A DNA stretch of 64,000 nt from a virus. A model generated the notes under the pieces. The model made no database searches. It was not told where the DNA came from and was given only the letters and a program-made list of their open reading frames with translations. Where the stretch lies: IMG/VR virus record IMGVR_UViG_3300017991_000001, positions 124,001 to 188,000 of that record. One strand, given 5' to 3'. The position numbers were made by a program, and so were the translations under genes. Every line of letters starts with the position of its first letter. The first letter of the stretch is position 1. Below are positions 6,685 through 20,100 of the stretch, one piece after another.

Positions 6685-7557
6685 ATGGGTGAATTCGCGA
6701 AACGGGCCGCCGAGGTCCTGGAGCCGTGGGAGCTGGAGCTGGAGCGCCAGCAGAAGAAGCTCTACAAGAAGATCCCGTCCTCCAAGGAAGAGGCCACCAC
6801 TTCGGCGATCAACCGCATCAACGAGCTGCGCCAGAAGAGCTACATGGCCGGCTACCTGATGAGGCATCTGCGTAGCGAGGAAGAGGAAACCAAGCGCCTG
6901 CTGCCGGAGGACTCGGTGGGCGTGCCCGGCAGGGAGATCTCCCTGGCGCTCCCTGAGAAGAAGGCTGGTGCGCTGGACGCGTTGACGCGCCCGCTGCGCG
7001 AGACGGCCGAAGACCTCAAGATGCACGCCTCCCAACGCATCGACGAGGAGAAGGAACGGCTCACACGCACCACGTCCGATCCCGGCACGCTGCCCTGGTA
7101 CTACCCCATGATGGCGCTGACCGCCCCCAACGCCTTCGCCGAGGGGTTCCGCAAGGCGGAGAAGGACATCGACGCCGAGGAGCTGGCCCGCATCAACGAG
7201 CGGCTCGTCAAAGCCAAGGCCGAGTTCGAGAAGGCGCTCGAGGAGGAGTACAGCCAGTCGGGCAGCTTGAAGGTCAGCAGCGCCCGGCCTCAAAGCGCCG
7301 GCGAGATGATCGACGGGCTGGCGCAGATGCATGTCAAGTGCGCCGAGGGTGAGCTCAACCAGATCCTGGGCACCTACCTGGCGCTGGCCGCGCTGCTGGG
7401 TCAGGGCGCGCACATGACGGCCAAGGAATGGGCCGAGAAGCGCGACCCGAAGAGACAGAAGCTGAAACTCGTGCGCGAGGCCGTGCGCCAGCGCATGCGT
7501 TCGTACATGCCACCCATCCGGGTGGAGGCCGGGGAACCTGGACTGGCCATAAGCTGA
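6685..7557 (+). CDS. Unassigned, largely alpha-helical protein
   Basis: 290 residues starting at ATG 6685 after GAGGTGAGC. Long charged segments with heptad-like spacing (residues about 10-75, 85-140 and 155-195) predict extended coiled coil. A Pro/Tyr/Met patch near residue 135 (TLPWYYPMMALTAPNAF) and a hydrophobic stretch near 235 (LGTYLALAALLGQGAHM) break the pattern. The C-terminus is basic. It ends 14 bases before the RNA polymerase start, so the two are probably cotranscribed. It could be a virion core or neck protein; nothing in the sequence decides this. Confidence 0.65.
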   Translation: MGEFAKRAAEVLEPWELELERQQKKLYKKIPSSKEEATTSAINRINELRQKSYMAGYLMRHLRSEEEETKRLLPEDSVGVPGREISLALPEKKAGALDALTRPLRETAEDLKMHASQRIDEEKERLTRTTSDPGTLPWYYPMMALTAPNAFAEGFRKAEKDIDAEELARINERLVKAKAEFEKALEEEYSQSGSLKVSSARPQSAGEMIDGLAQMHVKCAEGELNQILGTYLALAALLGQGAHMTAKEWAEKRDPKRQKLKLVREAVRQRMRSYMPPIRVEAGEPGLAIS

Positions 7558-7571
7558 CACGGGGTCCTCAC

Positions 7572-10500
7572 ATGCCTGAAGCCCTTCTCAATGACACGCT
7601 GAGCGCGCCGGTCAAACCAAAACCGGCCGTCACGCATCGCACGTTCGACGACGTGGACACCATGCGCGGCTCCATCTTCGACGGGGTGCTCGACGCCGTG
7701 GCCAAGAAGTACCCGGTCGAGAACACCCGCTATCGCATGGAAGTGGCTGATCTGGGCTACGGCAAGGACAAGCCTTACTCCCTGGAAGACCAGAAAAAAG
7801 CGATCATGACGGGCCAGACGATGACCCGTCAGCTGTCCGGCACCTGGCGCCTGGTCGATAAGGAGTCGGGCAAGGTCGTCGATTCAAAGAAGGCCGTGAT
7901 CGCACACGTGCCCTATGTCACGCCTCGGGGCACCTTCATCTACCGCGGCAACGAGTACACCATCTCCAACCAGATGCGCCTCAAGCCCGGGGTCTACTCC
8001 CGCGTCAAGGACAACGGCATGATCGAGGCCCACTTCAACGTGGCGCCCGGCACCGGCCCGTCCTTCCGCATGTACATGGAGCCGGACACCGGCATCTTCC
8101 GCCTGGCCGTGGGCCAGTCGACGCTGAAGATGTACCCGATCCTGAAGGCCATGGGCGTGCCCGACCGCGAGATCGAGCAGATCTGGGGAAAGGAGCTCCT
8201 GCAGAAGAACACCGAGGCGGCCGACCCGCGCGCCGTCTCCCGCGCCTTCGCCAAGCTGGTGGCGACCCGCGCGGACCAGCCGGGCATCGACGCCGACCGG
8301 GAAGGGCTGGCCAAAGTCGCCCAGTTCACCCAGGTGGACAACGACCTGGTCGTGGGGCCTTCGCGGGTCCACGGCAACGGCTTGTACACGCAGCAGCCCG
8401 TCCCGGCCGGCACGCGCGTCACGCCGGCCTACATCCGCATCGGCATGACCGGCGACACCGAGGCCGACTTCGTGCGTTCCGGGCCGGCGCTGTGGGTCAA
8501 TCACCAGCCCGACGACATGGCCAACACGGTCACGGCCGTAGCACCCGACGGGCGCATGGCCAACCTGATCGCCACCCGCGACATCGAGCCGTGGGAGGAG
8601 ATCACCTGCGACTACGCCAAGAACCACGACACGCTGACGGACTGGGTCAAGCAGCTGTACGACATGGACGAGATGGAGGCCGAGAGGTCGATCTCCAAGA
8701 TCGCCATGTCGAAGACGGCGGCCAAGATCCCGACCGTGGCCGTGGACCTGGACGGCACGCTGGCCGAGATGTACGAGTCCTTCGATCCCAAGAAGATCCC
8801 CGACCCCCGCCCCGGCGCGCGCAAGGCCATGAAGAAGTTCCAGGACAAGGGCTACCGGGTCCTGATCCACACCGTGCGGGGCGACGACCAGCTGACCAAG
8901 GACTGGTTGCACAAGCACGACATCCCCTACGACTACGTCAACGAGAACCCGGACCAGCCCGACACTGCATCCGACAAGCTGATCGCCGACGCCTACGTGG
9001 ACGACCGCGGCGTGCAGGGTGCGCAGGCCTGGCACAAGATCGAGCAACAGGTCTCCGCCAAGCTGGAGAAGGAAGCCAAGATCGGTTTCAAGGACCAGGA
9101 GATGCGGTGGACGAAGTTGTGGTTCCACGGCACCGTGCGGGCCCAGCGCCAGGGCAACGACGGCAAACCGTGGGTCTATGTCCAGGTCCACAAGGGGCTT
9201 ATGGACGCTGCTCGGGACAGCCTCGCCAATGAAGGCGTGGACATCGAGAAGAACCCCAACGACCCGCACATCACGCTTCTGCGCTCCAGCGAAGCCCAGG
9301 AGCTGATCGACCGGCACGGCGAGGAGCAGTGGAAGGGCGCGGCCAAGGACGGCAAGTCCATACGCTTCGCGCTCAGGCGCATGATGTCCCTGATCCCGGA
9401 CGGGTGGGACGGCGTGGACCGGGTCTGGTTCATCGAGGTGGAGAGCCCGGACTTGAAGAAGTACCGGCGCGATCTGGGTTTTCCCGAGCTGCCCATCGGC
9501 GACAACGGCAACGAGCACCGCTTCCACATCACCTTTGCCATCCACCGCTCCAAGAACGAGCCCAAGCGCGCGGCGTACCTGCTTTCCGGTGCCGGCATCG
9601 GAATCGTGGAGCGCGCCTTTGAGAAGGCCGCCGGGGCCACCGACCAGGGCATCGAGCTCAACCAGGTCTTCGACCGCATGGAGCTGGACCCTGACGTGAC
9701 CAAGTCCACGGTCGGTGAGGGCTTCAAGAACGCCGGCATCCCGACGCTGCTCAGGGTCAGCCAGAAGCTCCTGAACATTTCAAAGGGGATGGAGGACACC
9801 GACGACCGGGACTCGCTGGCCTACCAGAAGCTGTACGGTCCCGAGGACTTCTTCACCGAGCGCGTGAACCGCGACGCCGGCCAGACCGGCCGGAAGCTGT
9901 TGTGGCGCGCCACGCTGCGGGGCAACCTGAAACACGTGCCTACGGGGGCGCTTTCCGGGCAAATGTTCGGCGTGCTGCTGAGAAGCGGCATGGGGATGAG
10001 TCTCGAAGAGACCAACCCCATGGACATCATGGACCAGAACCTCCGCGTGATCCGCCTGGGCGAGGGCGGCATTCCGTCGCTGGACTCGGTGCCGGAGGAG
10101 AGCCGAAACGTCCAGCCCAGCCACTTCGCCTACCTGGACCCGATCAGAAGCCCGGAGAGCGAGAAGATCGGCGTGGACTCGCGCGTGTCCCATCGCGTGA
10201 TGAAGGGTTCCGACGGGCAGTTCCACGCGCCCATGTTCAACCCGAAGACAGGCAAGGAGGAGATGGTCTCCGCGGCAAAGGCGGCCGAGTCGGTGGTGGC
10301 CTTTCCGGGCGAGCTGAACAAGAAGCGCGGCAAGGTCAGGGCCATGGTCAAGTCCAGGCAGGTCCAGTACGTGGACCGCAAGGACGTGGACTACGAGGTC
10401 GAAGACCCCAACCAGATGTTCACGCTCAGCTCCAACCTGGTTCCCCTGGTGTCGGGCATCAAGGGCGGGCGCCTGCTGATGGGCGCCAAGTACTTCACCC

Positions 10501-13500
10501 AGGCGCTGCCCCTGCGCGAGCGGGAGGCCCCGCTGGTCCGCAACCTGGAGAGGAGCGGCAAGTCCTTTGACGAGCTGTACGGGGACCGGGTGGGTGCCAT
10601 ACGCGCGCAGGCTCCGGGTGTGGTGACCTCGATGAACAAGAACGGCATCAAGGTCAAGTACGCCGACGGGACCACCAAGGAGCATGAGCTGTATCGCAAC
10701 TTCCCCTTCAACCGGAAGAGCCTGACCGGGGATTGCGAGGTGCTGATCAAGCGTAACGGCGAACTCCTTGTTACGCGACTGGACGCCTACGAATTCGAGC
10801 AGGGGGACCTGACGCTGTCGATCGACCCTGAAACGAAGTTGTCCGCATGGATGGAGGTAACTGGCTATACGCGTCACGAGTGTGACAAGCGCCTGTACCG
10901 GGTCAAAACGGATTCAGGCAGAGCCTTCACAATAACTGAGGATCACAGCTTGATGGTGATGGGCCCTGAAGGCGATCTCGTCCCCGCTTACCCAAGCGCT
11001 TGCGTCGTTGGGCACACGCGCATACCCGTGGCGCTGCCTCGTTTTGAAGGGTGTCGCGGATTTTTCGGCGAGGACAAGCTGGGAACGTTGACCGGCCTGT
11101 ACCTGGCGGAAGGACATATTCCTCAGAACCAGCCCAATCTCATCATCATAGCGGTTGCGCCGGAAGAGCGGGCAGACGAGGTAATGCGGCTGTTTCGCGA
11201 ACTTGGCTGCAAACCTTTCAGGAACGGCGGTTCCGTGTGCGCTACCGATGCTGATTTGAGCAAGTTTCTCATAAAGAACTGCGGACACCTTTCGCACGGC
11301 AAGTTTATCGGCCGACAGCTGATGAATGCCAACATGTCGTTCAAACAGGCTCTGTTACAAGGCTATTTGGCCGGCGACGGCAACTTGTGGGCGGACAGAA
11401 ACGGCACTGTTCAGCTCACGGCAGTGACCGTATCCAAACGTCTTCGCGACGATCTGGTCGTTCTCGCGGGCACTTTGGGAGTCTTCACGACGCTTTTCGA
11501 CGTACCCCGTGACAACGAGGCATGGCGTGACGGCTACGGGCTGCGCTTCCCGAACAAGGAATTGAAGCGGACGCGGTGGATGTTCTACGAGGACCGTCAA
11601 CGCCTGCTCGACGCGTTGGTTAGGGAGAACACGCGCGCGTCCAAGTTTGACGTGGTTCCGGTGCCACGGGAAGCGCGTAAAGCCTTGTATGGCGAGTTGG
11701 AAACTGTGCCGCATTTCGTCTACAAAACGGTTAACAAGGGCTACGTGGCGAAACACAGAGTGCGTACGGGGTCTGGTGTTTTTGGAAAGTGGGGCGCCTC
11801 CGACGTGTCCTGGGACCGGATCAAGTCGATTACGGAGGTGCCCAGCGAGGAATATGTTTATGACCTGTCCGTGGCGGCATCCGAGGCTTTTGCGGTAAAC
11901 GGCGGCGTCGTTGTCCACAACACGTTCATCCACAACACCCCGACCGTTAAGATCGGGGACCGGGTCCGCAAGGGGCAGTTGCTGGCCACCAGCAACTACA
12001 CGGACGACCAGGGCGCGCTGGCGCTGGGCACCAACCTGCGCACCGCCTACGTGCCCTACAAGGGCCTCAACTTCGAGGACGCCATTGTCATCTCCGAGTC
12101 GGCGGCCAAGCGGCTCTCCAGCGAGCACATGTACCAGCACACGCTCGACAAGGAGGACGACACGGTCACGGGGCGCAAGCAGTTCGTCTCGATCTACCCG
12201 ACGACCTTCAACCGCAAGCAGCTAGGCGCGCTGGACGAGCGCGGCGTGGCCAAGGTGGGCACCACCATCAAGTACGGCGACCCCGTGGTGCTGTCCATGC
12301 GCAAGAACCAACCCTCGGCCGTGCATCGGGGCCGCAAGCCCATGTACACCGACACCTCCATCACCTGGGATCACGAGTCCCCGGGCATGGTGACCGGCGT
12401 GGACGAGACGGACGACGGCGGCTTCAACGTGACGGTGAAGGCCTACATGCCGGCACAGGAGGGGGACAAGCTGGCCGGCCGCTACGGCGACAAGGGCGTG
12501 ATCTCCAAGGTCGTGCCCGACGACCAGATGATGCACGACCGGGACGGCAAGCCCTACGAGATCCTGCTCAACCCGTTGGGCATCATCACGCGCGGCAACC
12601 CCTCCCAGGTGTACGAGACGCTGCTGGGCAAGGTGGCCCGCAAGCGGGGCAAGCCCATTAGTGTGCCGGGCTTCATGGACGAGAGCATGGTGGACTACGT
12701 GCGGAAGGAGCTCAGCCGGGAGCGGATGAAGTCGCATGAGGACCTCTACGACCCGACCACCAACCGCAAGGTGCCGGACATCCTGACCGGGGACCGCTTC
12801 ATCTTCAAGCTGCACCACACCGCCGAGTCCAAGGGCAAGGGCCGCGACGTGGGCGCCTACACCTCCGAGGGCATCCCGGCCAAGGGCGGCGAGTTGGGCT
12901 CAAAGCGGGTCAGCAACATGGAGCAGAACGCCCTGCTGTCCCATGGCGCGACCGGCGTGCTGCGCGACGCCCAGGTGGTCAGGGGCCAGCGCAACGACGA
13001 CTTCTGGCGGGCCTTCAGGATGGGCTACACGCCCCCCTCGCCGAGCGTGCCCATGGTCTACGACAAGTTCCTCAACCACCTGCGCGGCGCCGGCATCAAC
13101 GTCAAGAAGAACGGCGACCGGACGCAGCTGCTGGCCATGACCGACAAGGACGTGGACGAGATGACCAGCGGGGAGATCACCGAGGCCAAGACGGTGGACT
13201 CCGACACGCTCAAGGAGATCGACGGTGGGCTGTTCGATCGCGGGCTCACCGGAGGGCACGGGGGCAGCCGCTGGAGCCATATAAAACTGGCCGAACCCAT
13301 GCCCAATCCCGTGATGGAAGAGCCCATTCGTCGCATGTTGGGCCTGACCAAGGTCAAGTTCGAGGAGGTCCTGCAGGGCAAGGAGGACATCGGCGGCGAG
13401 ACGGGCACCAAGGCCATCGGGGCGGCGCTGAAGCGCATCAACCTGGACGAGGCCATCGACAACGCCAAGCTGATCATCAAGGACGGCGCGAAGTCCAAGC

Positions 13501-14504
13501 GGGACAACGCGGTCAAGACGCTGGGCTACTACGAGACGCTCAAGAAGGCCGGGATGAAGCCCAGCGACCTGATGCTCTCCAAGGTGCCGGTGCTGCCGCC
13601 GTCCATGCGCCCGATCACCCAGTACCGGTCCATGCAGCTCTCGGCCGACCCGAACTTCCTGTACCGGGACCTGATCAACGCCAACACGGACCTCAAGGAG
13701 ATCTCGTCCGAGCTGGGCCGCAGGCACGGCGGCAGGGCGCGGTTGCGCACCTACCACGCCTTCAAGGCCGTGACCGGCCTGGGCGACCCCGTGCAGGCCA
13801 AGACCCAGGAGAAGCGGGTCAAGGGTCTCCTGGCCCACGTCTTCGGCTCCAGCCCGAAGTTCGGGATGTTCCAGCGCCGGGTGCTGGGCAGCCCCGTGGA
13901 CGTGGTGGGCCGGGCGGCGATCACGCCCAACCCGAGCCTGAGCATGGACCAGGTGGGCATCCCCGAGGACAAGGTCTGGACGATCTACCGGCCCTTCGTG
14001 GTCCGGCGCCTGATCCGCCGCGGCATGCCGGCGATGGACGCGGCCAAGGCTGCGGCCAACCGCACGGAGGTGGCGGCCAACGCGCTGCAGGAGGAGATTT
14101 CCACGCGGCCCGTTCTGATCAACCGCGCGCCCACGCTGCACCGCTACGGGTTCATGGCGGCCTGGCCGGTGCTGACCAAGGGCAAGACCCTGCAGGTCTC
14201 CCCGACCACGGTGGGCGGCTTCAACGCGGACTTCGACGGCGACGCGATGAACTACCACGTGCCGGTGACCGACGAGGCCGTCGCTGACGCGGTGGACAAG
14301 ATGCTGCCCAGCAAGAACCTGAAGTCCGCGAGGTTCTTCAAGACCCATTACGTGCCCGTCAACGAGTTCCTGATGGGCCTGTACCTGGCCAGTACGGCCA
14401 AGAGCGACAAGCCGTTACGGGTGTTCCGGGACAAGAAGGACGTGCTGGCTGCCTACCAGCGCGGGGACATCGGCCTGGGAGACCGTGTTTCCATAAGGAG
14501 CTGA
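7572..14504 (+). CDS. Phage RNA polymerase: beta fused to N-terminal half of beta', with inserted enzyme domains and an intein
   Basis: 2310 residues from ATG 7572. Beta landmarks in order: GTFIYRGNEYTISNQ (about 117), DDRDSLAYQKLYGPE (about 740), LDPIRSPESEKIGV (about 855), NFEDAIVISES (after the intein), AGRYGDKGVISK (about 1632), and the clamp block GELGSKRVSNMEQNALLSHG (about 1775). Beta' landmarks follow: LFDRGLTGGHGG (about 1880), VPVLPPSMRP, VLINRAPTLHRYG and the catalytic Mg-binding NADFDGD at 2218-2224. It ends just after the dock/active-site region; the rest of beta' is the gene at 18262. SET-like, HAD-like and 2H-like domains occupy about residues 256-665. The usual N-terminal beta' zinc cysteines are not seen. 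Start upstream of 7572 would overlap the previous gene. Should transcribe phage genes together with the downstream half. Confidence 0.93.
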   Translation: MPEALLNDTLSAPVKPKPAVTHRTFDDVDTMRGSIFDGVLDAVAKKYPVENTRYRMEVADLGYGKDKPYSLEDQKKAIMTGQTMTRQLSGTWRLVDKESGKVVDSKKAVIAHVPYVTPRGTFIYRGNEYTISNQMRLKPGVYSRVKDNGMIEAHFNVAPGTGPSFRMYMEPDTGIFRLAVGQSTLKMYPILKAMGVPDREIEQIWGKELLQKNTEAADPRAVSRAFAKLVATRADQPGIDADREGLAKVAQFTQVDNDLVVGPSRVHGNGLYTQQPVPAGTRVTPAYIRIGMTGDTEADFVRSGPALWVNHQPDDMANTVTAVAPDGRMANLIATRDIEPWEEITCDYAKNHDTLTDWVKQLYDMDEMEAERSISKIAMSKTAAKIPTVAVDLDGTLAEMYESFDPKKIPDPRPGARKAMKKFQDKGYRVLIHTVRGDDQLTKDWLHKHDIPYDYVNENPDQPDTASDKLIADAYVDDRGVQGAQAWHKIEQQVSAKLEKEAKIGFKDQEMRWTKLWFHGTVRAQRQGNDGKPWVYVQVHKGLMDAARDSLANEGVDIEKNPNDPHITLLRSSEAQELIDRHGEEQWKGAAKDGKSIRFALRRMMSLIPDGWDGVDRVWFIEVESPDLKKYRRDLGFPELPIGDNGNEHRFHITFAIHRSKNEPKRAAYLLSGAGIGIVERAFEKAAGATDQGIELNQVFDRMELDPDVTKSTVGEGFKNAGIPTLLRVSQKLLNISKGMEDTDDRDSLAYQKLYGPEDFFTERVNRDAGQTGRKLLWRATLRGNLKHVPTGALSGQMFGVLLRSGMGMSLEETNPMDIMDQNLRVIRLGEGGIPSLDSVPEESRNVQPSHFAYLDPIRSPESEKIGVDSRVSHRVMKGSDGQFHAPMFNPKTGKEEMVSAAKAAESVVAFPGELNKKRGKVRAMVKSRQVQYVDRKDVDYEVEDPNQMFTLSSNLVPLVSGIKGGRLLMGAKYFTQALPLREREAPLVRNLERSGKSFDELYGDRVGAIRAQAPGVVTSMNKNGIKVKYADGTTKEHELYRNFPFNRKSLTGDCEVLIKRNGELLVTRLDAYEFEQGDLTLSIDPETKLSAWMEVTGYTRHECDKRLYRVKTDSGRAFTITEDHSLMVMGPEGDLVPAYPSACVVGHTRIPVALPRFEGCRGFFGEDKLGTLTGLYLAEGHIPQNQPNLIIIAVAPEERADEVMRLFRELGCKPFRNGGSVCATDADLSKFLIKNCGHLSHGKFIGRQLMNANMSFKQALLQGYLAGDGNLWADRNGTVQLTAVTVSKRLRDDLVVLAGTLGVFTTLFDVPRDNEAWRDGYGLRFPNKELKRTRWMFYEDRQRLLDALVRENTRASKFDVVPVPREARKALYGELETVPHFVYKTVNKGYVAKHRVRTGSGVFGKWGASDVSWDRIKSITEVPSEEYVYDLSVAASEAFAVNGGVVVHNTFIHNTPTVKIGDRVRKGQLLATSNYTDDQGALALGTNLRTAYVPYKGLNFEDAIVISESAAKRLSSEHMYQHTLDKEDDTVTGRKQFVSIYPTTFNRKQLGALDERGVAKVGTTIKYGDPVVLSMRKNQPSAVHRGRKPMYTDTSITWDHESPGMVTGVDETDDGGFNVTVKAYMPAQEGDKLAGRYGDKGVISKVVPDDQMMHDRDGKPYEILLNPLGIITRGNPSQVYETLLGKVARKRGKPISVPGFMDESMVDYVRKELSRERMKSHEDLYDPTTNRKVPDILTGDRFIFKLHHTAESKGKGRDVGAYTSEGIPAKGGELGSKRVSNMEQNALLSHGATGVLRDAQVVRGQRNDDFWRAFRMGYTPPSPSVPMVYDKFLNHLRGAGINVKKNGDRTQLLAMTDKDVDEMTSGEITEAKTVDSDTLKEIDGGLFDRGLTGGHGGSRWSHIKLAEPMPNPVMEEPIRRMLGLTKVKFEEVLQGKEDIGGETGTKAIGAALKRINLDEAIDNAKLIIKDGAKSKRDNAVKTLGYYETLKKAGMKPSDLMLSKVPVLPPSMRPITQYRSMQLSADPNFLYRDLINANTDLKEISSELGRRHGGRARLRTYHAFKAVTGLGDPVQAKTQEKRVKGLLAHVFGSSPKFGMFQRRVLGSPVDVVGRAAITPNPSLSMDQVGIPEDKVWTIYRPFVVRRLIRRGMPAMDAAKAAANRTEVAANALQEEISTRPVLINRAPTLHRYGFMAAWPVLTKGKTLQVSPTTVGGFNADFDGDAMNYHVPVTDEAVADAVDKMLPSKNLKSARFFKTHYVPVNEFLMGLYLASTAKSDKPLRVFRDKKDVLAAYQRGDIGLGDRVSIRS
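8337..8630 (+). other. SET-like domain inserted in RNA polymerase beta
   Basis: Residues about 256-352 carry SET signatures: VVGPSRVHGNGLYT at the start, a middle VNHQPDDMANTVTA corresponding to the NH..xxN motif, then LIATRDIEPWEEITCDYA, matching the conserved I-x-A-x-RDI-x-x-x-EEIT-x-DY end with the catalytic-type Tyr. SET domains usually transfer methyl groups from SAM to lysine. Whether it is active, and on what (polymerase, host protein), is unknown. Confidence 0.8.
8730..9020 (+). other. HAD-like hydrolase domain inserted in RNA polymerase beta
   Basis: Residues about 387-482. Motif I is VDLDGTL at 391-397 with the nucleophile and acid/base Asp pair (D392, D394). A Thr/Arg motif follows in VLIHTVRG, WLHKHDIPYDYVNENP matches phage HAD proteins, K-L-I-A-D supplies the lysine, and AYVDDRG (about 475-480) gives the motif IV acids. 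All catalytic positions appear intact, so it is probably an active phosphatase or nucleotidase. Confidence 0.85.
9100..9570 (+). other. 2H-phosphoesterase-like domain inserted in RNA polymerase beta
   Basis: Residues about 510-666 contain two H-x-T motifs, PHITLL (H566, T568) and FHITFAIH (H652, T654), about 86 residues apart. That pairing defines the 2H (LigT/cyclic phosphodiesterase) fold. Family members act on 2',5' or cyclic phosphodiester bonds in RNA ends or signalling nucleotides. The substrate here is unknown; an anti-defence or RNA-end role is speculation. Confidence 0.75.
10719..11921 (+). mobile_element. Intein with LAGLIDADG homing endonuclease in RNA polymerase beta
   Basis: 401 residues (protein positions 1050-1450). 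Block A begins at Ser1 in SLTGDCEVLI, block B is TITEDHSLMV, the two endonuclease motifs are LTGLYLAEGHI and LQGYLAGDGNL with both acidic residues, block F is EEYVYDLSVAASEAFAVNG and block G is VVVHN followed by Thr+1. Removing it joins FNRK to TFIHNTP, which lines up with the conserved beta sequence around NQNTCINQMP of bacterial polymerases. The insertion lies shortly upstream of the catalytic NFED. It looks fully functional for splicing and cutting; GC content is visibly lower than the flanking extein. Confidence 0.93.
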
Positions 14505-14529
14505 CAAACAACGTATCGGACCCTATAAT
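14501..14529 (+). promoter_or_regulatory. Strong sigma70-type promoter
   Basis: CTGACA (14501-14506), a 17-base spacer and TATAAT (14524-14529) give a near-consensus promoter in the gap after the beta-beta'N gene. The -35 box starts within the stop codon of the polymerase gene. It would drive the gene at 14560 and those after it, including the beta' C-terminal half at 18262, independently of the large upstream gene. Confidence 0.7.
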
Positions 14530-14559
14530 CCGCTGCGTTGATGCACAGGGAGAACTATC

Positions 14560-15186
14560 ATGTCCGCGTCCAAAGGTGTTGCCAAGAAGGTGCTGCCCAA
14601 GCCGAAAGGCAAGGAGGGGAAGATTCTCGTGACCACGCCCAAGCCCGACAAGGTTTCCGTACAGGCGGTCAAGACGTCCGCGCTGCGCCGAGCAGAGATC
14701 CTCAGCCTGATCACCAAGGAAGGTTTCGGCTTTGCCACGAAGGAGGGTAGCGCTGCCAAGGGGCTCGTGAACGCTGCCGGCAAGCTGCGCTCCGGGGCTC
14801 GAAAGGGCCTCAAGTCTTACGGCAAACTGGTCGGTAGCAAGACGAAGCCCGGAATTGCTACAGACAAGGAACGGAAGTTGTTCAACAAGGCCAAGAAGAA
14901 GGGCGTCAAGAGCAAGAAAGGCGCCAAGGCTCTCGATAAGTTCAAGCGCGAGGCTTCCAAGAAGACCGTGAAGCACTTGAACCGTTCGCAGAAATTCTTC
15001 GGAAAGCTGAAGGACGACAAAGGCAATCGCATTAAACTCAGCTCCGCTCAGCTGTTGGGCCACTTCCTGAAAAGGGCGCTGACCAAGCAGGGTTCGGAGC
15101 AGATCATCAAGCAGGCTTCGGACCGCGAACGGGCGGCCCGTGTGCTTTCAGCCGTCCACAAGGCGGCACGCAGCTATGGACGCTAA
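14560..15186 (+). CDS. Lys-rich basic protein
   Basis: 208 residues, ATG 14560 behind AGGGAGAA. Lysine and arginine make up a large fraction, with clusters such as KKVLPKPKGKEGK, NKAKKKGVKSKKGAK and KREASKKTVKHLN. Few hydrophobic stretches and no catalytic motif. The composition suggests nucleic-acid binding, for example a virion DNA-condensing or polymerase-accessory protein. It is the first gene behind the promoter at 14501 and starts the set lying between the two halves of beta'. The last 11 bases overlap the next gene. Confidence 0.7.
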   Translation: MSASKGVAKKVLPKPKGKEGKILVTTPKPDKVSVQAVKTSALRRAEILSLITKEGFGFATKEGSAAKGLVNAAGKLRSGARKGLKSYGKLVGSKTKPGIATDKERKLFNKAKKKGVKSKKGAKALDKFKREASKKTVKHLNRSQKFFGKLKDDKGNRIKLSSAQLLGHFLKRALTKQGSEQIIKQASDRERAARVLSAVHKAARSYGR

Positions 15187-15388
15187 GGCGTACCTCATCA
15201 AGCAGGCGCTGGGGATGAGTGGCCTCCAGATGCAGATGGAGATGCCCTTTTCACCACCCCGGCCCGTGGCGCACATGGACACGCTGGAGGACCGCCGTAC
15301 CCGGGAAAAGATGCTGGCGGACCTGCCGCCATCCAGACGTGAGGGGATCTTAAGGGCCATACAGGCCAGAATGAGGGCCAGACGATGA
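15176..15388 (+). CDS. Small tagged protein (MDAKAYLIKQA N-terminus)
   Basis: 70 residues from ATG 15176, overlapping the previous gene. It begins MDAKAYLIKQALGMSG, the clearest example of the N-terminal tag found on eight proteins here. The remainder is Met/Gln/Pro rich (LQMQMEMPFSPPRP), then a charged helix ending in RRREG..RARR-type basic residues. It is too short for an enzyme. It may be a packaged peptide or adaptor. It overlaps the next gene by 4 bases (ATGA), so it is translationally coupled. Confidence 0.65.
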   Translation: MDAKAYLIKQALGMSGLQMQMEMPFSPPRPVAHMDTLEDRRTREKMLADLPPSRREGILRAIQARMRARR

Positions 15389-16167
15389 ACAGACTCAACC
15401 CGCAACTGATCAAGCTGGCACGCGGCGCGATCCGCAAGGCGGAGAAGACGGCTGCCAAGAAGGAAGCCTTCGTGCCCATGTCACCCGCCGGTGCGGCTCC
15501 CGCACCTCCGGGTGCGCCCATGCCGCCTCCACCGGCAGGCGCGCCAGCGGCCCCCATGCCGCCCGATCCCATGATGGCCGGCGCCATGCCGGCTGACCCC
15601 ATGGCTGCAGGTGGGGCACCGCCGGCTGAAGGCGCGCCCATGGACCCGGCGGCTGCCGGTGCCGGCGGCGAGACCATGACGGTTGCGCTGCCCGACCTGA
15701 TCCAACTCTTCACCATGATCGCCCAGCAGGGCGGCGCAGGCGGAGCGCCCGCTCCCGCGCCCGCCGAAGGCGGCGGTGGCGAAGGCGGCGCCGAGCCCGA
15801 GAAGAAGCCCAGCGCGGCGGCGGGCAAGGACGCCAAGATCGACATGATCCTGTCCAAGCTGGACCAGCTGATCGGGGCGCTGGGCATGGCCGACATGATG
15901 GCGCCCGCCGAGGGCGGGGCAGCCATGCCTCCCGCAGAGACGGGGATGGAAGGCGAAAACGCCCTGGCTCCCGCCGAAGGCGGCATGGCTCCCGAAGCAC
16001 CCATCCCGGCGATCGATGCCGGCGGCGCGGCACCGCCCCCGCCCACGGGTGGCATGATGGTGGCTGCCGCGGAGGGCGAGAAGAAGGCATCCGGCAACGG
16101 CAACGTATCCAGGGCGAAGATGCTCAGCCGCATTTGCAGCAACCTGAGGAGTGGCCAGCGACGCTGA
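15385..16167 (+). CDS. Ala/Pro/Gly/Met-rich low-complexity protein
   Basis: 260 residues. The N-terminus MNRLNPQLIKLARGAIRKAEKTAAKKEA is a basic amphipathic helix, loosely similar to the tag (QLIKLA against YLIKQA). Residues 30-100 and 165-230 are Ala/Pro/Gly/Met repeats (PPAGAPAAPMPP, APAEGGMAPEA). Between them MTVALPDLIQLFTMIAQQGG and KIDMILSKLDQLIGALG are short amphipathic helices. A disordered linker protein with two binding helices is likely. It lies between the two halves of the beta' subunit. The role is unknown. Confidence 0.65.
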   Translation: MNRLNPQLIKLARGAIRKAEKTAAKKEAFVPMSPAGAAPAPPGAPMPPPPAGAPAAPMPPDPMMAGAMPADPMAAGGAPPAEGAPMDPAAAGAGGETMTVALPDLIQLFTMIAQQGGAGGAPAPAPAEGGGGEGGAEPEKKPSAAAGKDAKIDMILSKLDQLIGALGMADMMAPAEGGAAMPPAETGMEGENALAPAEGGMAPEAPIPAIDAGGAAPPPPTGGMMVAAAEGEKKASGNGNVSRAKMLSRICSNLRSGQRR

Positions 16168-16415
16168 TGAACGTGCGTGTGCAGGGCGAGGGCTTCGAGC
16201 CCGTGCAGGTTTTGGACAATGTCCAGTCCGTGGTCATTCTGGACGACCACGGGCAGCCGGTCATCGCCGTGCAGCGCACGAAGGAGAATCAGATCCTTTC
16301 CATCAAAGCCGGGGACCCCCATTTCGACAAGACCTTGGAGGCGATGGGCATCGGGCTGAACGCCCGGGTGGTCAGTGGGCATTTTCCGAAAGGGGTACCA
16401 AGTGATCCGTCCTGA
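16167..16415 (+). CDS. Small beta-rich unassigned protein
   Basis: 82 residues; ATG 16167 overlaps the previous stop as ATGA. An upstream in-frame start (16134) would lie inside the previous gene. The protein has alternating strands (VQVLDNVQSVVILDDHGQPVIAVQ) and ends VVSGHFPKGVPSDPS. It could be a small beta-barrel or head/tail accessory. Its 3' end overlaps the next gene by 14 bases. No family recognised. Confidence 0.6.
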   Translation: MNVRVQGEGFEPVQVLDNVQSVVILDDHGQPVIAVQRTKENQILSIKAGDPHFDKTLEAMGIGLNARVVSGHFPKGVPSDPS

Positions 16416-18252
16416 TTATGTCCCTCCCCTCCTGCCCGGCGTGGGGCCCCTGTCTTTTGAGAAGGCGGCGGTTGCCCCCTTGGTGGCGGCTGCCCTGCCC
16501 ACGGTCGGTAGAGTGGCGGGAGGGTGGCTTTTGCGGCGAGGGGGAGCAGCACTGCTTCGGCGGTTGGGGCAGCGAGTTATCCCTGCGCTGCGCAGGTTTT
16601 TTGGAAGAGGTACTTCAGCGGCACGTTCCGCTCTGCGTGCTGACATTACCCCCAGGAAAGCTTTTGAACGCATACCAGCACAAGTAAAGTTGCCGAAGCG
16701 TGATCCCATCACAGGCAAGAAAGCACCTCGTCACATGCGTGGTTGGCAGGATCGCTCCATGATTACAGAAGGTGTGGCACCTGGAACGCGTCCGCCTGCG
16801 GCGCCTGCCGCAGCGTCAGGGAAGCCGGGATTGGCTACACGTTTCGTTGACTGGGCCACGGGCCGCAAAAATGTGGACCCTTCCACGGGCAAAACACCTG
16901 GCGTGATGGGTCAGGCCATGAACGTGGGGGGCAAGGTATTGAACACCGCGCTCTACGGGAGCATAGGGGCTGACCTTTTGGGTTCACTGGGTTCGTTGTG
17001 GAAAGGCGGTTCGCCACCTGTAGCGTCCGGGTCTGCGGGACATCAAATGTGGAACTATCCCAAGACGGCCGAGCGTAGAGCTGCCTTCGAGGAGGGTGTG
17101 GACCGGTTTTGCAAGGAAGCCGACTTCGACGACGAGGACAAGCAAGCATTATACACGTTGATCGAAACAGCCGCTGAGTTGGAAAAGCGGGGCGTGGACA
17201 CTTGGGAGCTCCTTAAAAAGCCGGTTGTGGACCCTTTGGGCACGTGGATAGGCGTGGGGCATACTCTGCTGTCCGGGCTGGGAGGAATAGGTTCGGATAA
17301 GGGTATCTTAGGAGCAATGGAACACACGGGCAAGAAGTATATGAGAAGTGGACCAAATCCGTTCGAGAAAGGAATTTCAAGTATCTTTTGGGGCGACCCT
17401 GGCGCACGTGCTGAAAGTGCTGCCAAGAAAAATCAAACCCCCGAGCAGCGGGAACAGGCTTCTCGCAGGGATCAGGTTCGCGGCTTGAGCGAAGAGATCA
17501 TGAAGGACGAGGGGCTACGCGAAGACATTGAGAGGCGAGGGTTCAGGGAACTAAGGCGCTGGGCCAAATCCAGGAACGTGCCGTTGGGCGTGGCACGCGA
17601 CGCGCTGAAGGGTACGACTTCGGTGCATCCTCAACTCGCTGGTGCGCTAAAACAACCTACGAAGCCCGGTGTTACGCCCGGTTCACGGCTCATTGGTGTA
17701 CGAAGCGGAGCTAGGCAAACACAAGGTGGCTCCGTCCCACTCAGGCTGGGTCCAATGCCTGCGGCGAGGCCTCCGGCTTCAAATACACCTGGAGCGGCGC
17801 CCGCACCAACCGAACCCGCCACGGCGCCGGCGGCAAGTACATCCCCTTCTGCCGCCGAGGCGGCTTCATCGTTCAAGAACCAGGTGAACGCCCGGAACCC
17901 CGGCGCGAAGTGGCTCAACCTGAGCAAGGGCGAAGGTGCGATCCTGCCCGTGGATCAGTCGGCCGGCCCGAACCTGCAGCGCAGGGCCCAGACAAACGCC
18001 TTCTTCAACATGCAGCCGCAGCAGGGCAACGTGACCATGGCCCAGCGTGGCGGCACGGGCGTGGAGACGCTCACCCCGCGTACGCAGTCAAGCAACATGC
18101 CCTTCGCGGAGGGTACGGGTTCGCCGTCCACGGGCATGACCGACTTCAGCGACTGGATGAAGACCACCTACGGCGACACCAGTAAGATGACCGACCCCAG
18201 CAACATGATCTCTACGGGTGTGGACATGAAGACGCCCAAGCCGAACGTTTAG
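16402..18252 (+). CDS. Large unassigned, partly disordered protein
   Basis: 616 residues from GTG 16402 (AAGGGG upstream); GTG 16375 is an alternative start that would add nine residues. Residues about 15-60 are hydrophobic and basic (APLVAAALPTVGRVAGGWLLRRGGAALLRRLG), a possible membrane-interacting segment. Residues about 215-330 are a helical region (DEDKQALYTLIETAAELEKRG), then a charged region, then a long Pro/Ala/Ser/Thr stretch (about 425-510) and a Gln/Asn/Thr-rich tail. Base composition is lower in GC than its neighbours in places. It sits just before the beta' C-terminal gene. It resembles virion or injected proteins in design; function unknown. Confidence 0.65.
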   Translation: MIRPDYVPPLLPGVGPLSFEKAAVAPLVAAALPTVGRVAGGWLLRRGGAALLRRLGQRVIPALRRFFGRGTSAARSALRADITPRKAFERIPAQVKLPKRDPITGKKAPRHMRGWQDRSMITEGVAPGTRPPAAPAAASGKPGLATRFVDWATGRKNVDPSTGKTPGVMGQAMNVGGKVLNTALYGSIGADLLGSLGSLWKGGSPPVASGSAGHQMWNYPKTAERRAAFEEGVDRFCKEADFDDEDKQALYTLIETAAELEKRGVDTWELLKKPVVDPLGTWIGVGHTLLSGLGGIGSDKGILGAMEHTGKKYMRSGPNPFEKGISSIFWGDPGARAESAAKKNQTPEQREQASRRDQVRGLSEEIMKDEGLREDIERRGFRELRRWAKSRNVPLGVARDALKGTTSVHPQLAGALKQPTKPGVTPGSRLIGVRSGARQTQGGSVPLRLGPMPAARPPASNTPGAAPAPTEPATAPAASTSPSAAEAASSFKNQVNARNPGAKWLNLSKGEGAILPVDQSAGPNLQRRAQTNAFFNMQPQQGNVTMAQRGGTGVETLTPRTQSSNMPFAEGTGSPSTGMTDFSDWMKTTYGDTSKMTDPSNMISTGVDMKTPKPNV

Positions 18253-18261
18253 GGGTTGTGA

Positions 18262-20100
18262 ATGGAAACGACGGTTGGACAGCTCCTGCTGAACGAGGCC
18301 TTGCCCGAGGACATGCGCGACTACCGCCGTGTCATCGACAAGAAGTCCCTCGCGCCGCTGTTCACCGAACTGGCCGAGAAGCACCCCGACCACTACGCCG
18401 AGATCAACCAGCGCCTCCACACCCTGGCCGCCGACGCGGTGACGGGGCACGGCGGCGTGACCAGCCTCACGCTCGACTCGCTGCGCACGCCGCTGGGCAT
18501 CGAGCGCGCCCGCAAGGAACTGCAAAAGAAGATCGACAAGGTGCTGGACGGACCCGGCACCCAGGAACAGAAGAATGAAAGAATCGTGGGACTGATCTCC
18601 GACGCGCTGGAGCCCGTCACGCAGGAGAATTACAAAGAGAACCTGGCGGCCGACAACCCGCTGGCCGTGCAGGTTTCCTCCGGCAGCCGGGGCAACCCCG
18701 CCGGCCTGCGCTCCCTGACAGCAGGGGATCTGCTTTTCACGGACCACAAGGACCGCCCGATCCCGGTGCCGGTCCTTACGTCTTTCTCGGAAGGGTTGGA
18801 CCCCGTGCAGTACTGGGCCGGCGCGTACACGGCCCGCAAGGGCACCATCGCCACCAAGTTTGCCACCCCCAAGTCGGGGTTCCTGGGCAAGCAGCTCGCG
18901 GCGGCCTCCCACCGCCTGGTGGTCACCGAAAAGGATTGCGGCACGCCCAACGGCCTCGTGGTGGACGCTCACGACCCGGACAACGAGGGGGCCGTGCTGG
19001 CTTCGGACGCTGGCGCGTTCAAACGCGGCGAGGTGCTGGACCCCAATAACATGCGCAAGCTGAAGGACCAGATCGTGGTGCGTTCGCCCATGACCTGCCA
19101 GGCGGAGAACGGCATCTGCCAGCAGTGCGCCGGGGTGCGCGAGCGAGGCGGCTTCCCGCCTATCGGCGACAACGTCGGGATGGCCGCCGCACACGCCATC
19201 TCCGAACCCATCGGGCAGGGTCAGCTGAACGTCAAACACGGCGGCGGGAAGCTGAAAAAGCGCGACGAGGCCAAGACGGGCATCGACCTGATCAACCAAC
19301 TCGTGCAGGTTCCCAAGACTTTTGCCGGGGCTGCTGCGATATCAACCGTTGACGGTCGAGTCGAGCGGGTGGAGAATGCTCCACAAGGCGGCCAGTACAT
19401 TCGGATTGCGGGTACCGAACATTGGGTGCCGGCAGGCGAGGACCTGGTTGTCAAGCGTGGGGACAAGGTGGAGGCCGGGGACGTCCTTTCCAGCGGCATC
19501 CCGAACCCGGCCGAGATCACGCGCTTCAAGGGGATCGGGGAGGGCCGGCGGTACTTCATGGAGATGTTCCGCAAGACGCTGGAGGAGAACCGCTTCAAGG
19601 CGCACCGGCGCAACGTGGAACTGCTCTCCAGGGGCCTGATCAACCACGTCAGGGTGACGGATCTGGACGGACCGGCGGACACCCTGCCCGACGACGTGGC
19701 CGAGTACGACGACATCGTGCGCGGATATCAGGCCCGTTATGGCTCCAAAACGGTTGCCCCGAAGCGTGCCCTTGGGTTATACCTGGAACGTCCCGCACTG
19801 CACTATTCGATCGGGACGCGCGTCACGCCCCGCGTGGCCAAGAGTTTGCAGGACCACGGCGTAGAAAATGTGCTGGCCCATGCCGACGAACCAAGCTTCG
19901 TACCGGAGATGACACGGGCGATGGAAACCCTCTCACACTCCAGCGACTGGATGGTGCGATTGGGCGGTTTCCATTTGAAAAAGTCCTTAATGGGGGCGTT
20001 GCACCGTGGACGAGAGTCCAAGGAGCACGGCACCTCATTCATCCCTCCACTCGCGAAGGGCGTCGAGTTCGGCAAGCCAAAAGGCGACGTCGGATACTGA
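18262..20100 (+). CDS. RNA polymerase beta' subunit, C-terminal half
   Basis: 612 residues. It starts TTVGQLLLNEALPEDMRD, equal to the TTxGRxLLxxxLP block that follows the beta' position where the upstream fusion gene ends. The bridge-helix region shows SSGSRGNPAGLRSL and YTARKGTIATKFATPKSGFL. The structural zinc site is complete: Cys226 (DCGT), Cys279, Cys286 and Cys289 with the spacing of E. coli 814/888/895/898. The trigger loop EPIGQGQLNVKH (315-326) keeps Leu, Asn and His in the Pol II-like arrangement. The C-terminus is short and diverged. It must assemble with the beta-beta'N protein to make an active enzyme. Confidence 0.92.
   Translation: METTVGQLLLNEALPEDMRDYRRVIDKKSLAPLFTELAEKHPDHYAEINQRLHTLAADAVTGHGGVTSLTLDSLRTPLGIERARKELQKKIDKVLDGPGTQEQKNERIVGLISDALEPVTQENYKENLAADNPLAVQVSSGSRGNPAGLRSLTAGDLLFTDHKDRPIPVPVLTSFSEGLDPVQYWAGAYTARKGTIATKFATPKSGFLGKQLAAASHRLVVTEKDCGTPNGLVVDAHDPDNEGAVLASDAGAFKRGEVLDPNNMRKLKDQIVVRSPMTCQAENGICQQCAGVRERGGFPPIGDNVGMAAAHAISEPIGQGQLNVKHGGGKLKKRDEAKTGIDLINQLVQVPKTFAGAAAISTVDGRVERVENAPQGGQYIRIAGTEHWVPAGEDLVVKRGDKVEAGDVLSSGIPNPAEITRFKGIGEGRRYFMEMFRKTLEENRFKAHRRNVELLSRGLINHVRVTDLDGPADTLPDDVAEYDDIVRGYQARYGSKTVAPKRALGLYLERPALHYSIGTRVTPRVAKSLQDHGVENVLAHADEPSFVPEMTRAMETLSHSSDWMVRLGGFHLKKSLMGALHRGRESKEHGTSFIPPLAKGVEFGKPKGDVGY

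Follow-up and report, generated by a model that had tools for sequence, protein, structure and literature searches.

A phage RNA polymerase with fused β–β′N and separate β′C, probably derived from a single chain by one break in β′

According to the accessible sections of two papers (PMC7598289; PMC7824862), split viral RNA polymerases (RNAPs) have been proposed to originate by import from cyanobacteria, by intron-driven breakage or as pre-LUCA relics, and the second paper argues for a primordial origin of split phage subunits. The non-virion RNAPs of the phiKZ/AR9 type resemble the locus described here in that β′ is cut in the interval after the double-psi barrel DPBB-A. In those enzymes, however, β is also cut and the N-half of β′ (β′N; gp55 in phiKZ, PMC7618050) is not fused to β, the C-half (β′C) starts earlier (about 65 residues in PALS_2, with profile position 45 at residue 113), and each phage has two RNAPs. 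The available part of PMC7598289 states a common split site after the DPBB for phiKZ-type and cyanobacterial β′. Cyanobacterial and plastid rpoC1/rpoC2 are cut in the same linker region as the present locus, but after the TTxGxxLL block, whereas the cut lies before that block here; residue 12 of 8syi_Z aligns with query residue 22, and γ (8h3v_E) extends 67 residues beyond the aligned phage end.

Metagenomic phages of the mReC type share with this locus bacterial-like β and β′ homologues with the NADxDGD motif; the accessible text (PMC7481178) speaks of β and β′ subunits, and neither a single chain nor a shared split is described there. The single-chain double-barrel RNAPs of crAss-like phages and YonO also carry both barrels in one chain, but they are very remote in sequence according to the portion of the literature available, whereas β and β′ of this locus align directly with their bacterial counterparts. 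In Salmonella phage Arash, gp206 and gp216 agree with the locus in the β–β′N fusion, the separate β′C, the break point, a portal gene upstream and a gp218 homologue downstream. Arash differs in that nine other genes, several of them on the opposite strand, separate the halves, in that it has neither an intein nor a SET/HAD/2H insert, and in that its virion contains a sigma factor (gp10), whereas none was found with PF04542 in the virus record studied here. The available sections of the Arash paper (PMC10585845) list gp206 (3516 spectra), gp216 (1210 spectra) and gp218 as virion proteins, and division of the published counts gives 2.31 and 2.00 spectra per residue for gp206 and gp216, respectively. 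Because these values are similar, they fit a virion polymerase, with the Arash particle holding similar amounts of both halves, and they speak against a functional separation of the halves in time in Arash; the authors of that paper name carry-over as an alternative. The words split, fused and fusion are absent from its main text, and a search by title and abstract, mostly within freely accessible papers, recognised no published single-chain phage β–β′ of this kind and no description of this split. The enzyme is of a known kind, and its architecture, a β–β′N fusion with a separate β′C, is newly varied.

The window, that is, the whole stretch of 64,000 nucleotides analysed, comprises bases 124,001–188,000 of a 211,084-base virus record, in which β′C has one match (the record may be incomplete). 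The RNAP locus lies within a dense plus-strand gene block, some of whose members are related to known virion genes (Table 1). The upstream RNAP gene had been predicted to be β′; it does hold the β′ N-half, but β is fused to it, with Rpb2 domain 6 (PF00562) followed by Rpb1 domains 1 and 2 (PF00623, PF04997) in one frame. Its start codon is likely the ATG at 7572; counted from the start at 7428, the chain without the intein has 1957 residues. The intein flanks agree with the intein-free sequence of a relative, L002 (NFPFNRKTFLHNTP). The HAD-like stretch is matched also by phrog_1238 and phrog_415, and in β of L002 the HAD and 2H parts, judged by eye, appear to be kept and the SET part not.

Table 1. 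Features of the RNAP locus (positions in the window)
Feature	Position	Strand	Basis or remark
β fused to β′ N-half	7428..14504	+	2358 aa as read; Pfam domains, profile mapping
SET-, HAD- and 2H-phosphoesterase-like stretches in β	8490..9548	+	PF00856, PF24694, PF22547, all slightly below curated cut-offs
Intein, 401 aa, in β	10719..11921	+	Domain match; flanks NFPFNRK and TFIHNTP
NADFDGD, β′ catalytic motif (DPBB-A)	14223..14243	+	Sequence, alignment
Predicted sigma-70-like promoter, CTGACA-17-TATAAT	14501..14529	+	11/12 consensus; -35 overlaps the stop codon of the upstream gene
Lys-rich protein, 208 aa	14560..15186	+	ORF; no homologue among the relatives' loci compared
70-aa peptide, N-terminal tag MDAKAYLIKQA	15176..15388	+	Homologue in L016, same place
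Pro/Ala/Met/Gly-rich protein, 260 aa	15385..16167	+	Homologues in L002, L016, L017, same place
β-rich protein, 82 aa	16167..16415	+	Homologues in L002, L016, L017, same place; aligned ones in L018, L026, L029
616-aa protein	16402..18252	+	Weak L002 homologue (3e-6), with the tag at its start
β′ C-half, 612 aa	18262..20100	+	PF04998; bridge helix, four zinc cysteines, trigger loop
Trigger-loop signature LNVKH	19225..19239	+	Alignment; MRTFH or LRTFH in bacterial outgroups
Homologue of Arash structural protein gp218, 863 aa	20633..23224	+	Profile search; downstream in both architectures

As originally predicted, β′ is broken between this gene, which ends in GDRVSIRS directly before its stop codon, and the gene at 18262, which begins (METTVGQLLLNEALPED) at the TTxGxxLL block; the block had been given as TTxGRxLLxxxLP, and Q stands at the place of the R. 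Compared with solved structures, the N-part of β′ ends at a position equivalent to residue 551 of E. coli β′ or 563 of C. difficile β′, and the C-part begins at residue 578 of the latter, so that about 14 C. difficile residues between them have no counterpart.

The same joint was followed in 65 loci (L numbers) that were obtained from IMG/VR by a search with four aligned C-halves and mapped with three profiles. In 22 of them, β, β′N and β′C form one ORF, which has about 2030–2250 residues where a large insertion is absent. The halves are separate ORFs in 37 others, with the end of the first and the start of the second at the same positions of the alignment; at the junction, VVTLKGRKT-TIGKEIIRGMLP in the single-chain L020 is aligned with DRVSIRS, stop, and METTVGQLLLNEALP in the window. 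A lone C-half with no N-half in view is present in four loci (L019, L041, L044 and L059), and L077 is of a different type with continuous β′. In the remaining locus, L053, the chain is continuous except for a single in-frame TGA (9965–9967) placed precisely at the joint, and this locus is possibly a natural intermediate. Recoding of this stop codon is not supported, as TGA ends neighbouring ORFs too. Because one family thus presents single-chain, split and in-frame-stop states at one homologous joint with conserved neighbours, the direction of change becomes testable. The isolates Arash and D181 are of the split type, and no isolate with single-chain β–β′ was among the best 12 of 59 and the best 12 of 75 matches to two queries. 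In four loci (L036, L045, L057 and L069), β′N is separate from β as well. In Vibrio phage D181 (L005), what looks like a break of β is due to a group I intron (7110–7390; RF00028, 1.5e-26) with a homing endonuclease, and the parts are annotated as separate hypothetical genes. Large insertions, probably inteins, are found near NADFDGD in β′N of L027, L034, L054, L068 and L075 and inside β′C of L026, L034, L068 and L073, and the zinc-binding cysteines of β′C are replaced in L018.

The alignment for the main tree has 60 rows and 1347 columns, and its outgroup consists of three bacterial rpoB/rpoC pairs; near-duplicates (L025, L031, L076 and L078), a locus of the window's own virus (L001) and rows filled to less than 50% (L006, L015, L019, L041, L042, L044, L059 and L077) were left out. 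The 36 split rows all fall into one clade (SH-aLRT 98), around which the single-chain rows are placed. The large trees were quick searches with SH-aLRT values only; long branches converge at the root, and the composition of two outgroup rows is odd. When the four basal long-branch single-chain rows are removed, the split clade persists (SH-aLRT 97) and the root fork opens, so that polarity then rests on the continuity of β′ in the outgroup. In a 221-column tree with more phages (without L001, L025, L029, L031, L064, L068, L074, L076 and L078, and with fuller copies used in place of L006 and L015), the split clade is weakly broken by L040 inside it (87/85); one split clade is not rejected by these data (p 0.655; PALS2v, JDFnp4, L044, L058 and L075 were also omitted from the AU tests on these columns).

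Because β′ of the bacterial outgroup is continuous, the split is most simply read as derived in this family, whatever the root, and one break is the shortest account. Together with the single-chain relatives and the single clade of split rows, this agrees with the original view that β′ was formerly continuous. The reverse history, in which the split was ancestral and the single chain arose by later fusion of β′C onto β–β′N, is rather unlikely. It would accord with the argument for primordial split phage RNAPs in the accessible part of PMC7824862 and with the root fork that opens once the four long rows are removed; however, it conflicts with the continuous β′ of bacteria and with the bacterial trigger-loop state that the single-chain rows share. 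In addition, a tree that keeps the 21 single-chain and in-frame-stop rows together, to the exclusion of bacteria, is rejected (p 2.3e-5), and L053, with its stop at the joint, falls inside the single-chain group. The evidence from this family therefore points in the direction opposite to the primordial split argued in the available text of PMC7824862.

The trigger loop provides a second character, which agrees with the split clade. At the compared site, which presumably corresponds to M932–H936 of E. coli, [KR]H is present in all 42 readable split rows (43 examined), none of which has a basic second residue. In contrast, [FW]H is found in 21/22 single-chain rows, in the one in-frame-stop row and in all three bacteria, and the second residue is basic in 19/22 single-chain rows and 3/3 bacteria. 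Two single-chain loci, L050 and L058, have LSGWH, half way toward the split state, and L068 is interrupted at this site. LRxKH occurs in L077 and in phages Ab1-TPeters, EP_H11 and Va2, and since β′ of Va2 is continuous, KH alone is not bound to the split. The change serves as a second marker and carries a biochemical prediction. All seven sampled C-halves of phiKZ-group non-virion RNAPs also have LSxKH, and this signature and the shared cut site may reflect either convergence or common descent. In the 221-column tree, with the trigger-loop columns left out, the phiKZ group stands apart from the split clade, and a common clade is not rejected (AU p 0.163). It is conceivable, if doubtful, that phiKZ-type non-virion RNAPs descend from this split clade; a single fission of a single-chain virion β–β′, together with a change from MRxFH to LSxKH, would then make split RNAPs derived, and neither early multi-subunit relics nor cyanobacterial imports.

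The genes at the joint differ greatly among relatives. The gap between the halves is between 7 bp (L036) and 9.6 kb (L042) long, and other subclades have different genes there, often on the opposite strand. The flanks are shared by both forms: of the 22 single-chain loci, 10 have a portal homologue upstream of β and 11 have a homologue of Arash gp218 downstream of β′C, and the corresponding numbers of split loci are 21 (including Arash and D181) and 36 (including the window, Arash and D181). These neighbours were found with iterated profiles in loci that end at most 10–12 kb from the match, so that misses do not mean absences. Because the portal gene lies upstream and the structural gene downstream in both forms, these comparisons argue that the C-half kept its place and that genes moved into the joint, as the original prediction had supposed; the portal about 10.5 kb upstream of β in the window's own phage (L008) indicates that other genes came in there too. 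The five genes of the window, however, did not make the break, contrary to what had been proposed, since the cargo varies while 37 of the 65 loci share the break. A recent mobile insertion of the cassette 14501–18252 into an intact β′ of this phage is accordingly scarcely credible. The cassette does have its own promoter, and GC3 of its genes is lower than that of the RNAP genes (0.64–0.80 versus 0.83–0.89), but the break is common to relatives of less than 30% identity that carry other cargo, and it is the same in L002 (65% identity); moreover, L002, L016 and L017 already have homologues of cassette parts in place. The gene-order comparison, with a shared split, unrelated spacing and partly opposite-strand genes, therefore contradicts the original prediction on this point.

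The origin of this RNAP is probably a β–β′N–β′C enzyme made as one polypeptide, which would have been cut once, in the ancestor of the window's clade, in the linker past the β′ double-psi barrel and immediately ahead of the TTxGxxLL block. This would have given a core of two chains, β–β′N with both catalytic barrels and β′C with the bridge helix and the trigger loop, and the halves would reassemble without a covalent link. The cut may have left β′C at the head of, or within, the downstream structural operon, and the joint may then have become a site of gene accumulation and turnover. By analogy with Arash, virions may carry the enzyme and inject it for use in early transcription. The split is real and well delimited; the uncut single-chain relatives illustrate a possible route to split viral polymerases, and the origin of such enzymes is testable in this family.

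Joining of the halves after transcription or translation, by an intron spanning the block or by a split intein, is very improbable in place of such non-covalent reassembly. The family is rich in inteins and introns, as seen in β of the window and of D181, but each end has its own stop or start, and the break is constant among split rows while the gap varies freely. A search of 14000–18700 for introns and other RNA families gave no Rfam match (E up to 0.1), and no intein signature was seen by eye at either end.

The five genes predicted between the halves are all present. They overlap or touch in an operon-like manner, and the last one stops 9 bp short of β′C; β′C is therefore probably the sixth gene of an operon that would run from the promoter at 14501. 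This promoter, originally described as a near-consensus -35/-10 pair, is real by statistics, being the sole match of at least 11/12 in 204,000 of the 211,084 bases (0.1 expected under a first-order Markov model). The original suggestion that separate promoters could make the two halves at different times found no support. The homologous leader of L002 has GTGACA-16-TATAAT (11/12), and a promoter like that of the window was not found in the leaders of L016 and L017. A single-sequence search of the relatives' loci detected homologues of the five genes in L002, L016 and L017 only; the relative of the 82-aa protein in L018, L026 and L029 was recognised by position and alignment. That protein is predicted to be mostly β (mean pLDDT 77), as expected from the first description, and its model gave no significant fold match (best E 0.26). 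Pfam and PHROG families were not found for the five proteins.

The tag found on the 70-aa peptide and on the L002 homologue of the 616-aa protein belongs to an MNAKAYLIKQA-like leader on eight otherwise unrelated genes of the window (15176, 30441, 34658, 40691, 53739, 54538, 55173 and 57570), seven of which fit the core pattern strictly and one (40691) loosely. In 273,923 ORF residues, the core pattern was counted 8 times, compared with 0.1 in shuffled sequences, and the seven other tagged proteins gave no Pfam or PHROG match. Internal proteins of phage T4 carry a capsid-targeting leader that is alike in form, and the AYLIKQA-type tag is a candidate virion- or capsid-targeting leader.

The leaders that follow β′N in L018 (3940–4021), L026 (7281–7353) and L029 (8969–9052) share an ATTGTG block, with a GCTGGTAAGATATCA-like block about 20 bases past it. 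This leader motif is possibly a phage promoter, different from that of the window.
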